Source: Microbacterium sp. ProA8 (GTDB lineage: Bacteria > Actinomycetota > Actinomycetes > Actinomycetales > Microbacteriaceae). From it: a stretch of DNA of 64,000 bases. The notes beneath the pieces are model-generated. The model worked only from the letters and a program-made list of their open reading frames with translations. It searched no databases and was not told the origin of the DNA. This document shows, piece after piece, positions 385 through 22,613 of the stretch (the first letter of the stretch is position 1; the number at the start of each line of letters is the position of its first letter). The stretch spans positions 1,922,001-1,986,000 of the forward strand of contig NZ_CP157000.1 of assembly GCF_039905635.1 (NCBI RefSeq), given 5' to 3'. Both the position numbers and the translations under genes were made by a program.

Positions 385-416
385 AGAAGAGCGGATGCCG
401 AGGCATCCGCTCTTCT
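385..416. terminator. Hairpin terminator after rbpA
   Basis: Near-perfect inverted repeat with arms of about 14-15 bp (positions 385-399 and 402-416) and a very short loop, 28 bases after the rbpA stop. There is no long T-run, as is usual in high-GC actinobacteria. Confidence 0.8.
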
Positions 417-437: not shown

Positions 438-523
438 GGGTTTCGACTCGCTCCGCTCGCTCGACCTTGACCCGCCTCGCATCAACGCTCGCTGGCGCTC
501 GCATTGATCCGAGTCGCGTCAAT
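438..523. repeat. 86-bp dispersed hairpin repeat, copy 1
   Basis: About 85% identical over 86 bp to 21624-21709 (13 differences by eye). It has a constant 5' block (TTTCGACTCGCTCCGCTCGC) and a long stem with arms at 467-485 and 504-522 that pair at 16 of 19 positions, closed by an 18-nt loop identical in both copies. It lies between the convergent genes rbpA and pgl and overlaps the pgl stop codon. The middle of the stem differs between copies but stays paired. Confidence 0.8.
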
Positions 524-1298
524 ACTCGCGGTCGATGAGCTCCGGCGGCACCTGGGAGGCGGCGGCCTGGTCGACGAAGAACGTCGTGCGCTTGCGACCC
601 TTCGCACCGGCGGCGGGGACGCTCGCATAGCTGGCACCGGCCAGAGCGAGACCCAGCGCGGCCGCCTTGTCGGTGCCCGACAGCACGAGCCACACGCGCT
701 TGGAGCTGTTGATGACCGGACGGGTCATCGAGATCCGCTCCGGCGGAGGCTTGGGGGAGTCGCGCACCGCGACCACCGAGCGATCCGTGATCTGGATCTC
801 GCCGCGGTCGGGGAACAGTGACGCGATGTGGCCGTCCGGACCGACGCCGAGGAAGCAGACGTCGAACGAGGGCCACGCGCCTTCGCCGCCGGGGAAGCGG
901 GCGAGCTCGTCGGCATACGCGGCGGCGGCGGCATCCAGATCCACGCCGTCATCGCTGCTGAGCATGGTGTGGATGTTCTCCGCCGGGATGTCCAGACCGT
1001 TCAGGAACGCCTCACGCGCCTGGTGGTCGTTGCGATCGGCGTCGGCGCGGGGGAGGAACCGCTCGTCGCTCCACCAGAAGTGGACGCGCGACCAATCGAT
1101 GCGGGCCGCGCGCGGACTGCGTCCTGCGGCGCCGAGCACGGCGGCGCCCATCGCCCCGCCCGTCAGGGAGATGTGGGCGAGCTTGCCCTCGTCGACGCGC
1201 TTGGCGACCCGGTTCAAGAAGCGCGGAGCGACGGAATCGACGAGCGCAGCGGGATCGGAACTGATGATGACGCGTTTCTCGGCCCAGCCCTCAGGCAT
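519..1298 (-). CDS. pgl: 6-phosphogluconolactonase
   Basis: Hydrolyses 6-phosphogluconolactone to 6-phosphogluconate, the second oxidative step of the pentose phosphate pathway, in the cytoplasm. The 259-residue length is normal for the DevB/SOL family. Visible family motifs are LTGG near residue 45, WWSDERF at 75-81 and GVGPDGHIASLFP at 151-163. It is the last gene of the tkt-tal-pgi-zwf-opcA-pgl operon, 36 bases after opcA. Its stop codon falls inside the 86-bp hairpin repeat shared with 21624-21709, which may end transcription from both sides. Confidence 0.95.
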   Translation of the reverse strand: MPEGWAEKRVIISSDPAALVDSVAPRFLNRVAKRVDEGKLAHISLTGGAMGAAVLGAAGRSPRAARIDWSRVHFWWSDERFLPRADADRNDHQAREAFLNGLDIPAENIHTMLSSDDGVDLDAAAAAYADELARFPGGEGAWPSFDVCFLGVGPDGHIASLFPDRGEIQITDRSVVAVRDSPKPPPERISMTRPVINSSKRVWLVLSGTDKAAALGLALAGASYASVPAAGAKGRKRTTFFVDQAAASQVPPELIDREY

Positions 1299-19077: not shown

Positions 19078-20238
19078 GTGAGCGCCACCCCCCTGCACGC
19101 ACTGCCCCTCGACGAGCTGCGCCAGCGCACCAGCACGAAATGGCGGAAGTACGGGGAGGACGTGCTGCCGTTCTTCGTGGCCGAGACCGACTACGCGCTG
19201 GCTCCCGAGATCACGCGCGTGCTGACGCGCGCGGTGCAGCTCGGCGACACCGGCTACACCCCGCCCGACCCCGGCGTCCGTGAGGCCTTCGCAGGATTCG
19301 CCGAGCGTCGCTGGGGGTGGAACGTCGATCCGTCCGACGTGTTCTGGACGGGTGACGTCATGATGGGCGTCGTCGAGATCCTCCGCAAGGTCATCGAGCC
19401 CGGTGACCGCGTCGTGGTCATGCCGCCGGTGTACCCACCGTTCTACGACACCGTGGAAGAAGCCGGTGGCGTCGTCGAGCGTGTGCCACTCGCGGCGAGC
19501 GACGCCGGCTGGAAGATCGACCTCCCCGGTGTCGAGGCGGCCCTCGCGGGGGGCGCGCGCGCCGTGCTGCTGTGCAACCCGCACAACCCGACGGGCACCG
19601 TGCACACGCCCGAGAGCCTGGCGGCGCTCGCGGATATCGCCGAGGGGTTCGGCGCGACGGTGATCAGCGACGAGATCCACGGACCGCTGACCCATGCACC
19701 GACGGTCTTCACGCCGTTCCTCACCGCGTCGGAGGCGGCGCGGCGGGTCGGCTACGCGGTGACCAGCGCCAGCAAGACGTTCAATCTCGCCGGCCTGAAA
19801 TGCGCGGTGATGGTCGCCGGCGGTGACCCGCAGCGCTCGGCGCTGCGCTCCCTGCCCTGGGAGGTCGAGTGGCGCACCGGCCTGTTCGGCGCGCTCTCGA
19901 ACGTCGCGGCCTTCTCACCCGAGAGCGACGAGTGGCTGGAGAGCCTGCTGGCCGCCCTTGCCCACAATCGCGTGCTCCTGGCCGAGCTCCTCGCCGAGCA
20001 CCTGCCGCACGCGCGCTACCTGCCGCCCGACGCCGGCTTCCTCGCGTGGGTCGACCTGTCGGCGTACGGCTGGGGCGACAACCCGGCGGTGAAGGTGCTG
20101 CGCGACGCGAAGGTGGCACTGCATCACGGGCCTCTCTTCGGCACCGAGGGCACGGGGCACGTCCGCATCAACTTCGGCTGCGCGCCCGAGCTGCTCCGCG
20201 AGGCGGTGGAGCGCATCGGCGCCCTGGCGCGATCGTGA
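19078..20238 (+). CDS. MalY/PatB-type PLP aminotransferase / cystathionine beta-lyase
   Basis: 386-residue fold-type I PLP enzyme of the MalY/PatB class, which cleaves C-S bonds of cystathionine-like substrates or transaminates. The PLP lysine sits in SASKTFNLAGLK; NPHNPTGTVHT and ISDEIHGPLTH are the usual cofactor-contact motifs. The GTG at 19078 is preferred over the ATG three bases earlier because a TAGGGT hexamer lies 6 nt before it. Its last codons overlap the MFS gene start (GTGA), suggesting the enzyme and exporter work on the same compound. Confidence 0.9.
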   Translation: MSATPLHALPLDELRQRTSTKWRKYGEDVLPFFVAETDYALAPEITRVLTRAVQLGDTGYTPPDPGVREAFAGFAERRWGWNVDPSDVFWTGDVMMGVVEILRKVIEPGDRVVVMPPVYPPFYDTVEEAGGVVERVPLAASDAGWKIDLPGVEAALAGGARAVLLCNPHNPTGTVHTPESLAALADIAEGFGATVISDEIHGPLTHAPTVFTPFLTASEAARRVGYAVTSASKTFNLAGLKCAVMVAGGDPQRSALRSLPWEVEWRTGLFGALSNVAAFSPESDEWLESLLAALAHNRVLLAELLAEHLPHARYLPPDAGFLAWVDLSAYGWGDNPAVKVLRDAKVALHHGPLFGTEGTGHVRINFGCAPELLREAVERIGALARS

Positions 20239-21605
20239 CCACCGCGTCCGAGCCCGCAACGGGCATCTGGCAGGGCCGGTTCGTCTGGGTGACGGTCGGC
20301 GCCGTCGCCTTGATCTTCCTCGCGGCCATCCAGTCCCTCGCCGTGACCACGGTGATGCCGGTGGTGAGCGCCGATCTGGACGGCGAGCGCCTCTACGCGG
20401 TGGCCTTCGCGGGAACGCTCGCCACGAGCGTCATCGGCATGGTCGCCGTCGGCGCGTGGTGCGATCGCGGCGGTGTGCTCGCACCGCTGAGCACCGCGGT
20501 GGTGCTGTTCGTCGCCGGGCTGCTCATCTCGGGCCTCGCCCTCTCGATGCCGACGCTCGTCGTGGGACGCCTCGTGCAGGGCCTCGGCACCGGAGGGCAG
20601 ACGGTGGCGCTGTACGTGGTGGTCGCCCGCGTGTATCCGAGCGCCCTGCACGGCCGCGTCTTCGCCGCCTTCTCGGCGGCCTGGGTCGTGCCCTCGCTCA
20701 TCGGCCCGTTCCTGGCGGGTGCCGTCACGGAGTTCCTGCACTGGAGGTGGGTGTTCCTGGGGGTGGCCGCACTGACCGTCGTCGCATTCGCGATGGTGGT
20801 GGCGCGCCTTCACGGTCTCCCGCTCCATACCGATGAGCCCGCCACTTCACGCGTCGCGCCGCGGCTGGCGTGTGCGATGGCGGTCGCCATCGGAGCCCTG
20901 GGCCTTAGCCTCGCGGGCGAACTGGGGGCGTGGGCGTGGGCGGCGGTGGCGGCATCCGTCGGCGTCATCGCGCTGGCGTCGCGGCCCCTGCTGCCCCGCG
21001 GCACCCTTGTCGCCGGACGCGGCCTGCCGAGCGTCGTGCTGATGCGCGGGCTGATCGCGGGCGCGCTGTTCGGCGCCGAGATCTACGTGCCCTACCTGCT
21101 GATCGACGAGTATGGTTTCTCGCCGACGTGGGCGGGACTCGGCCTCACCGCCGCCGCGTTGGCATGGGCCGCCGCCGCGGACGTGCAGGGCAGGTTCGGC
21201 GACCGCATCGGCAACACCCGCATCACGCTGATCGGCATCGCGCTGCTCGTGGCCTCGCTGGCGGTGGCGGCGGCGACGGCGCTGCTCGGTCTGCACCCGG
21301 CCGTGCTGATCGCGGGATGGGGTCTCGCCGGAGGCGGCATGGGTCTCATGTACCCACGGCTGACCGTGCTGACGCTCGCGTACTCCACCCCGAAGAACCA
21401 GGGCTTCAACTCGTCGGCGCTGTCGATCTCGGACGCCGTGGGCTCGGCATCCTCGATCGCGGTGATGGGACTCGTCTTCACTGCGCTGGCGGGGACGGAT
21501 GCCGGATTCCCGGCCGTCTTCGCCATCGCCGTGGTGCTCGCCCTCGCGGCCCTCGTGCCGGGGCTCCGCCTCGGCCACGCCCACGAGGTCTCACCGGCGC
21601 GGTAA
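20235..21605 (+). CDS. MFS drug/metabolite exporter
   Basis: 456 residues with about fourteen hydrophobic segments. The pattern fits the DHA-type multidrug antiporter branch of the major facilitator superfamily; GAWCDRGG between early helices and VGRLVQGLGTGGQTVALYVV resemble motifs A and C. The GTG start overlaps the aminotransferase stop by four bases. The frame is open upstream only as a shadow of the aminotransferase gene. Substrate unknown; coupling to a C-S lyase or aminotransferase hints at an amino-acid or thiol-related compound. Confidence 0.88.
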   Translation: MTTASEPATGIWQGRFVWVTVGAVALIFLAAIQSLAVTTVMPVVSADLDGERLYAVAFAGTLATSVIGMVAVGAWCDRGGVLAPLSTAVVLFVAGLLISGLALSMPTLVVGRLVQGLGTGGQTVALYVVVARVYPSALHGRVFAAFSAAWVVPSLIGPFLAGAVTEFLHWRWVFLGVAALTVVAFAMVVARLHGLPLHTDEPATSRVAPRLACAMAVAIGALGLSLAGELGAWAWAAVAASVGVIALASRPLLPRGTLVAGRGLPSVVLMRGLIAGALFGAEIYVPYLLIDEYGFSPTWAGLGLTAAALAWAAAADVQGRFGDRIGNTRITLIGIALLVASLAVAAATALLGLHPAVLIAGWGLAGGGMGLMYPRLTVLTLAYSTPKNQGFNSSALSISDAVGSASSIAVMGLVFTALAGTDAGFPAVFAIAVVLALAALVPGLRLGHAHEVSPAR

Positions 21606-21623: not shown

Positions 21624-21709
21624 GGGTTTCGACTCGCTTCGCTCGCTCAACCTTGAGTCGAGCTGCATCAACGCTCGCTGGCGCTCGCATTGATCCAGCT
21701 CGACTCAAT
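21624..21709. repeat. 86-bp dispersed hairpin repeat, copy 2
   Basis: Second copy of the element at 438-523. Stem arms at 21653-21671 and 21690-21708 pair at 18 of 19 positions around the same 18-nt loop. It lies between the convergent MFS and siderophore-interacting-protein genes and overlaps the stop of the latter, as copy 1 does with pgl. Confidence 0.8.
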
Positions 21710-22613
21710 TCTCGGCGCGGCCGAGGCGCCAGTAGCCCATGAAGGCCACGGCGCGACGGTCCACGCCGCGCTCTGACACGAGGTGGCGACGAAGTGCCTT
21801 GATCGCCCCCGCCTCGCCGGCCAGCCACGCGTAGAGCCGCGCGCTCTTCAGCGCGGCTCCGCCCTTGGCCGTACGCGGCACCTCCCAGAGGATGTCGGTG
21901 TCGACGTCGACCTCTTCGACCTCCGAGCCCGTGCCGGCGGGTGCCAGCCGGGCTGCGGCGTCCGTCACCGACTCGACCAGGTGGGCGTGACGATCGCCGT
22001 CCCCCCGCGCCCCGATCCGGTATTCGAAGCCCGGGTGCTGCGGCAGATACGCGGCGTCGTCGGCGTGCGGAAGCTCGACGGCGACCACCCCGCGGGCGTC
22101 CGCCGGCAGCTGCTCGAGGATCGCGGCGATGGCCGGTGCGGCCGTCTCGTCGCCGGCGAGCAGGATGGCGTCGACGCGCGCCGGCGGCACGAAGTCGATG
22201 CCGAAGCTCACGCCGCTGTGCGCGGCCGTCGGCGCGAAGATCAGCACCTCGTCGTCGACACGGGCGCGGGCGATCCAGTCGGATGCCGGTCCGATCACGT
22301 CGTGCGAGACCATGTCGACATCGACCTCGTTGAGGTGGTTGCGCACGTAGCGGGTCGTGTAGGTGCGGAACGGCAGGCGCCGCTCGTGGGGGAGGTCGCG
22401 CCACTGCGCGTACCAGTCGTCGCCCGTCGGCATCGCGTCGAGGCCCAGAGTGCGCGTCGGGAAGACGATCTTCACGCGCTGATCGAGTCCGGGGTCGCCG
22501 TAGTCGCCGAGGTCGTCGCCGCCGAAGGTGAAGCGGCGGAAGCTCGGCGTCACATCGGCGATCGCCGTCACGCGGGCGCGGAAGAAGCGGTAGGGCACAT
22601 CGGCGTCAGACAA
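21705..22613 (-). CDS. Siderophore-interacting protein (ferric-siderophore reductase)
   Basis: 302-residue SIP/ViuB-family flavoprotein that releases iron from imported siderophores by reduction. The FAD-binding RTYTTR motif lies at residues 83-88, and a C-terminal NAD(P)H-binding SIP domain with LAGDETAAPAI follows. The start is a TTG at 22613, supported by AGGAG six bases upstream. It is the last gene of the iron-uptake cluster, 12 bases after the ATPase gene. Cytoplasmic. Confidence 0.93.
   Translation of the reverse strand: MSDADVPYRFFRARVTAIADVTPSFRRFTFGGDDLGDYGDPGLDQRVKIVFPTRTLGLDAMPTGDDWYAQWRDLPHERRLPFRTYTTRYVRNHLNEVDVDMVSHDVIGPASDWIARARVDDEVLIFAPTAAHSGVSFGIDFVPPARVDAILLAGDETAAPAIAAILEQLPADARGVVAVELPHADDAAYLPQHPGFEYRIGARGDGDRHAHLVESVTDAAARLAPAGTGSEVEEVDVDTDILWEVPRTAKGGAALKSARLYAWLAGEAGAIKALRRHLVSERGVDRRAVAFMGYWRLGRAEN

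Follow-up and report, generated by a model that had tools for sequence, protein, structure and literature searches.

A two-hairpin repeat of Microbacteriaceae in which the first hairpin usually begins with a stop codon and keeps its pairing while its stem sequence varies

Two elements in the window (by which we mean the whole 64,000-nucleotide stretch of Microbacterium sp. ProA8 DNA that was analysed) belong to a Microbacteriaceae repeat of ~85–100 bp that is built from two hairpins in tandem. The first hairpin (H1) usually begins with the stop codon of the upstream gene, and its stem varies in sequence while its pairing is kept; the second (H2) is a REP-like hairpin that lies 3′ of H1 on the minus strand. 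We consider the element to be, more likely than not, a REP-like mobile repeat that is anchored at stop codons and that forms the first structure at the mRNA 3′ end, with its pairing kept by selection; within this proposal, both the mover and the function are what we infer.

Both elements were found where the original prediction had placed them, at 438–523 (copy 1) and 21624–21709 (copy 2). Read on the minus strand, each unit runs TTGA...H1...TCAA, followed directly by GG..GAG...H2...TCGAAACC. In copy 2, H1 (21653..21708, minus strand) has a 19-position stem in which 18 positions are paired and one is a G.G mismatch, and H2 (21625..21652, minus strand) contains the REP-like GGTTGAGCGAGCGAAGCGAGTCGAAACC with a GGTT/AACC closing stem and a GAA tip. 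The equivalent hairpins of copy 1, on the same strand, are at 467..522 (H1; 16 of 19 stem positions paired) and 439..466 (H2). These predicted pair counts agree with the alignment, as does the claim that at least four positions had changed on both sides of the stem: pairs 5, 10, 11 and 12 have each undergone a double change from one Watson-Crick pair to another. The 18-nt loop that the prediction described as identical in both copies is not a single open loop: in the fold, a T.G pair and GC pairs prolong the H1 stem as far as a GA/GA internal loop, where tandem G.A pairs could form, and further GC pairs lead on to a GCCA tip. The minus strand also folds better than the plus strand at both sites (z-scores of -6.16 versus -2.95 for copy 2, and -2.32 versus -0.89 for copy 1); for the gene that terminates within the element, this is the sense strand.

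For copy 2 that gene is 21705..22598 on the minus strand, presumably siderophore-interacting-protein-like (SIP-like), for which an orthologue gave no NCBIfam match; its TGA (21705..21707, minus strand) supplies element bases 2–4. The convergent gene on the plus strand (20235..21605; presumably MFS-transporter-like) ends ~20 bp from the element. Copy 1 has the same arrangement: the TGA at 519..521 (minus strand), again element bases 2–4, terminates the 6-phosphogluconolactonase gene pgl (519..1298, minus strand), an orthologue of which is named by NCBIfam. As predicted, both copies lie between convergent genes and overlap a stop codon, with the TGA of the minus-strand gene inside each. A separate hairpin, GAAGAGCGGATGC..GCATCCGCTCTTC (386..415), is situated outside copy 1, between pgl and the convergent gene that faces it (presumably RbpA-like); most of 30 pgl relatives retain it, whether or not they carry the element.

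The element had been described as having two copies. Both are real, but the host genome (4.37 Mb, one contig) holds six copies of the conserved inner part at ≤3 mismatches; a reversed-pattern control had no matches in that genome. Across 247 genomes of the genus, a near-exact version of this inner (loop) pattern was found at 22 sites in 11 genomes (reversed-pattern control, 0), and a covariance model built from 21 copies has matches (E ≤0.001) in 74 of the 247, or in 69 of the 226 good ones. In a family-wide draw, matches to the model were obtained in 8 of 299 genomes and 7 of 85 genera: the host genome, one more member of the genus, and six genomes from other genera with one match each; these searches took more than 40 genomes at a time, under stricter filters by which weak matches are lost. 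An exact pattern for the 3′ side of the element yielded 26 records, mostly titled Microbacterium, and no match in viral contigs. Similarity searches of plasmids and phages, with copy 2 as the query, were negative too, and none of 4227 Rfam models reached its gathering score in the window or E ≤1 around copy 2. In the titles and the beginnings of abstracts that our searches of an open-access library listed, no description of this element was found.

Some individual copies deserve mention. Tandem duplicates of the unit are present at L028 (genome G160) and L198 (G073); in these, the second copy is without the outer 5′ arm. Three of the six single copies in other genera (L243, L244 and L246) are located 3′ of a gene ending in DQVTKL, an ending that by eye resembles nusG in carriers; L236 is the same element as L243. 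The element is also carried by a record titled Planococcus sp. APC 4015 (L233, L239), an assembly that may be mislabelled or contaminated.

The proposal that the shape of the element is conserved, rather than its stem sequence, is strongly supported by comparing covariation with shuffled alignments. The first alignment was of 21 copies chosen by their near-exact loop (20 distinct rows, 24 pairs). Its covariation score of 0.166 compares with 0.082 after shuffling and was reached in 0 of 500 shuffles; when pairing partners were slid by 1–3 columns, the score fell to 0.016–0.067. Standard pairs occupy 87.9% of cells versus 83.2% in the shuffles (0/500), and 8 of the 24 pairs show double changes (1/500). 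The number of further standard pair types is a weaker measure (18 versus 15.3; equalled by 39 of 500 shuffles). We also analysed 27 matches to the 3′-side pattern, which specifies the inner and outer parts of the 3′ side but places no constraint on the core or the 5′ arm; 12 of these matches share element sequence with copies in the 100-copy set that is described below. Here, the three core pairs are formed in 67 of 81 cases (62 Watson-Crick, 5 G.T), against a mean of 33 (s.d. 4.3, maximum 48) in 2000 shuffles.

The 100-copy set combines the 21 near-exact-loop copies with 79 high scorers of the covariance model, from which ~16 matches in the same score range were omitted; being a set of model high scorers, it is biased towards well-paired stems. 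A3, which was fitted to the covariance model, was left unused for pair counts. Rows were dropped before counting: two of 100 (L091 and L128) for the outer pairs, 19 of 98 for mismatches, and 15 of 98 for wobble pairs and the H2 stem. When each of 46 gene families is represented by a single copy, 94% of the outer five pairs are Watson-Crick, compared with 77% (maximum 83%) under the null. The genome is GC-rich and short two-copy repeats are common, so that chance or composition might be thought to generate GC-rich inverted repeats with shared words; the covariation shuffles, the core-pair shuffles, the control stop codons (see below) and the empty reversed-pattern control all speak against this explanation, which we find exceedingly improbable.

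A more substantial challenge to selection on shape is that the covariation could be a mutational by-product, generated by template switching within a quasi-palindrome that copies one arm onto the other. Neighbouring pairs do differ together between SIP-like orthologues (G000, G198 and G073), and some stems are perfect. Nevertheless, G.G mismatches persist at pairs 6 and 14 (58 of 79 and 62 of 79 copies, respectively), positions that in the remaining copies are mostly paired, and G.T exceeds A.C; neither property is expected if the arms are routinely corrected against each other, and we regard template switching as a rather improbable origin of the covariation. The frequency of G.G at these two positions also means that pairing is not required at every position of the stem. 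Regarding the wobble pairs, we counted 28 distinct G.T versus 9 A.C on the sense strand (p = 0.0026) with positions 1, 6 and 14 excluded; the raw counts including position 1 are 31 versus 14, and position 1 alone runs the opposite way. This excess suggests that the strand that folds is the gene's sense strand, either as RNA or as that strand of the DNA, although it could instead reflect strand-biased mutation. A hairpin that is bound by protein, again as RNA or as DNA, is possible.

The position of the element relative to stop codons, which had been put forward as a check, is highly constrained. When genes were called from codon usage, a called gene ended at a stop codon within the first four bases of the element in 79 of the 100 high-scoring copies, leaving 21 without a called gene that ends at the element; in contrast, none of 280 control TGA or TAG triplets located 100–300 bases downstream coincided with a called gene end. 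A called gene also ends at the element in 21 of the 27 matches to the 3′-side pattern. A looser test, which asks for an open frame of at least 40 codons, was passed by 87 of the 100 copies (TGA at bases 2–4 in 79, and TAG at bases 1–3 in 8; in two more the stop lies at a different offset, and 11 do not pass) and by 23 of 26 assessable copies among the 27; because 121 of the 280 control stops also pass the looser test, we rely upon the called-gene count. The far arm of H1 matches the choice of stop codon: TCAA is present in 69 copies, all of which have TGA, and TCTA in 8 copies from four gene families (five of the copies are at rpoC), all of which have TAG. The foot of H1 is TTGA/TCAA or covarying variants of it, and in seven of the 98 parsed copies it carries GCAA without the usual stop. 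In this TTGC...GCAA minority (L087, L107, L126, L133, L136, L137 and L148), foot pairing is mostly kept; L136 starts with CTGC.

We also compared orthologous sites with and without the element. Among the 30 closest pgl orthologues, the full element is present in G000 and G094, a single arm is present in G109, and a short TTGACGC beginning is seen in each of G061 and G129. The gene ends in TAC TGA in 24 of the 30 and in TAT TGA in six, namely these five plus the element-free G051. Two other element-free orthologues, G105 and G223, read CTGACGCGGCTC, which resembles the 5′ arm of the element and is either a remnant or native sequence. At the SIP-like gene, four of 30 orthologues carry the element (one of them diverged) and that of G051 looks like an internal-deletion remnant; all five end in AAT TGA, as does the element-free G223. 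Since element-free TTGA stops exist (pgl in G051, the SIP-like gene in G223), the T of TTGA is no proof of insertion. A joined-flank search of fetched loci disclosed empty sites in close relatives that read CTGA at rpmJ (8/8), nrdF (3/3), lemA (4/4) and one further gene (2/2), where the host genome's copies read TTGA, except for the lemA copy, which reads CTGA. At rpoC, the element or a remnant is found in 6 of 30 orthologues, all six with TAG; the 24 that are element-free have TGA (22) or TAA (2), and never TAG. From this comparison of orthologues, empty sites included, and from the restriction of rpoC TAG to genes with the element or a remnant, we conclude that the stop codon tends to come with the element. 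Integron attC sites combine a conserved architecture with a variable stem sequence and adjoin gene ends; the element resembles them in its fixed architecture, its variable stem and its place next to gene ends. Integron attC, selenocysteine insertion and read-through were considered and dropped because, for the genes compared, orthologues that lack the element terminate at an identical or almost identical codon.

Copies at the same gene in different genomes are alike in outer arm, core and tip (for each, 0 of 200 label shuffles were as high), and copies in the same genome are alike in tip (0/200) and outer arm (3/200), but not clearly in core (30/200). To judge from these likenesses, old insertions may have been inherited with the gene while tips spread or were exchanged within genomes; subfamilies or shared genome ancestry could be responsible instead. 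The patchy presence at the same genes could reflect old insertions followed by many losses, rather than present mobility.

H2 links the element to a larger family, with 61 REP-like sites in the host genome (≤3 mismatches) and 6 composite H1+H2 units. These 61 sites, and the orthologues that show presence, absence and remnants, fit the earlier suggestion of a REP-like element spread by copying. The closing stem of H2 also covaries: among 83 that were recognised, GGTT/AACC occurs in 46, GATC/GATC in 16, GGTC/GACC in 11, and others in ten. GAGTAG is read in 38 of 98 H2 units (for example, L088 and L123), which puts a GTAG immediately ahead of the inner hairpin, and GAGCGA in 44; given the former, a tie between H2 and GTAG REPs is possible. 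Most members of the 61-site family itself read CGTTGAGCGAGCGAAGCGAGACGAAACG, and an inverted relative is often close by. A drawing of the stem can accommodate tandem G.A pairs and a GNA tip, and in 3 of 25 inspected copies the repeat provides the TGA of the preceding gene. The accompanying suggestion of a RAYT is not supported: the Y1/RAYT transposase model PF01797 matched nothing in the 26 genomes searched, a set that includes the host genome and all 11 with the strict loop (of the high-copy genomes, G189 is inside this set, and G173, G190 and G225 are outside it). Nor did inspection by eye between clustered REPs or paired elements reveal a common transposase-like gene that might be an autonomous partner.

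The preceding observations bear upon an alternative in which the hairpin operates at the level of DNA only, as an IS200/IS605-like or REP-like substrate for single-strand transposition; the mRNA would play no part, and the outer arm (TCAA, TCTA or GCAA) would guide the element to its target (TTGA, TAGA or TTGC, respectively). Insertion by IS200/IS605 is not known to make a target duplication, and our element is similar in this respect: flank repeats of at least 4 bases were found at 2 of 83 ends (the longest being 7), against 0.7 expected, which amounts to no consistent duplication. Its left edge is TTGA, and in 82 of 83 cases a pyrimidine directly follows its right end. The outer arm is complementary to the gene-side bases, TAG cases included, and the GTAG in 38 of 98 H2 units is a further point in favour. 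As described in PMC6006769, the ends of IS200/IS605 and their non-autonomous relatives have subterminal hairpins and use base pairing between guide and target, with a guide tetranucleotide beside the foot of the hairpin. On the other hand, the element differs from IS200/IS605 in that no Y1 transposase was found in the 26 genomes and in how strongly it is confined to in-frame stop codons. If insertion at TTGA were random, such codons would seldom be hit: of 102 TTGA sites, noncoding or at stops, that were sampled in the host genome, 7 are in-frame stops, as compared with 79 of 100 copies of the element. Moreover, the TAGA target is found in 0 of 24 element-free rpoC orthologues; since TAG at rpoC is confined to genes with the element or its remnant, it becomes less plausible that the outer arm simply copies a pre-existing target. 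For these reasons we view a role confined to DNA as unlikely.

We next consider transcription termination, since a bidirectional terminator had been among the original suggestions. A Rho-independent or bidirectional terminator that has been copied around the genome might be expected directly after stop codons, where the element is indeed placed, and 51 of 90 copies are then followed by a convergent gene. However, in 37 of 90 the next gene is co-directional, and the element occupies the rpmJ–rpsM and nusG–rplK intervals (rpsM and rplK being presumed identities). A U-run follows H1 in 0 of 90 copies and H2 in 0 of 77, there is no terminator call at either window site, and most pgl relatives retain their own hairpin downstream. 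The element is no ordinary intrinsic terminator, and we deem it very unlikely to be a terminator of the wider description given above.

The 100 copies are distributed over 47 gene families, 17 of which were seen more than once. We scanned 27 proteins, one per family; several are partial frames and three have no NCBIfam name. Conserved proteins among them include ribosomal proteins L36 (rpmJ) and L9, GroEL, a GyrB/ParE-type topoisomerase, RpoC, Pgl, NusG, CysE, peptide deformylase, lipoamide dehydrogenase, class II DAHP synthase, pantothenate kinase, NrdF, SerC, PyrE, NucS, GlnE, an EF-Tu-domain protein and LemA. A bias towards housekeeping genes is our impression.

We file the element as a REP-like palindromic repeat that is set apart from RAYT REPs. 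In Di Nocera et al. 2013 (PMC3733652), the GTAG and CGTC REP families are short palindromes near gene 3′ ends, and most of them lie where the flanking genes converge or run in the same direction; TAG stops are often provided by REP termini, CGTC REPs are without a transposase, and the word ‘actinobacteria’ is absent from the main text. The element is like these families in being palindromic near gene 3′ ends and in the GTAG that precedes the inner hairpin of many H2 units. It is unlike them in several ways: the foot of H1 carries neither tag (by eye), there are two hairpins in a fixed order, the stop codon is within a covarying stem whose far arm follows the switch between TGA and TAG, and the host is actinobacterial. 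Furthermore, CGTC REPs are defined by a CGTC tag and a stem of 8–9 bp, whereas H1 has 19 stem positions and, by eye, no CGTC. A second comparison is with E. coli REPs that are ≤15 nt from a stop codon, for which ribosome stalling and lower translation have been proposed (RepRanger; PMC12306157). Our element shares with these a hairpin near the stop codon, but differs in that its hairpin opens with the stop codon itself, the register of which hardly varies.

We hypothesize that the element is a non-autonomous mobile repeat that some enzyme would put beside stop codons, that once inserted it would stand at the head of the transcribed 3′ UTR, and that selection would keep its paired shape and not its letters. 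The most likely role of this shape may be that of a barrier to 3′-to-5′ decay or to read-through, or that of a hairpin close to the site of termination that would tune translation. A more elaborate scheme can also be drawn, in which some non-Y1 enzyme inserts folded two-hairpin DNA precisely at stop codons, the stop codon in the element's own foot replaces that of the gene, the far arm acts as the guide (TCAA for TGA, TCTA for TAG), and the stem is at once an address label and a regulatory RNA hairpin for conserved genes; as a whole, we hold this scheme to be distinctly doubtful.

REP-like sequences are generally portrayed as lying beside gene ends and at times supplying the stop codon. In the present repeat, the hairpin itself includes the stop codon in a near-fixed register, with compensating changes across many species. 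Its presence at conserved genes, such as rpoC, nusG, rpmJ, groEL, nrdF and those for L9 and the EF-Tu-domain protein, provides pairs of orthologues with and without the element that constitute a natural test of what stop-proximal hairpins do in gene expression, and the element points to a further way of moving short hairpin DNA in Actinomycetota.
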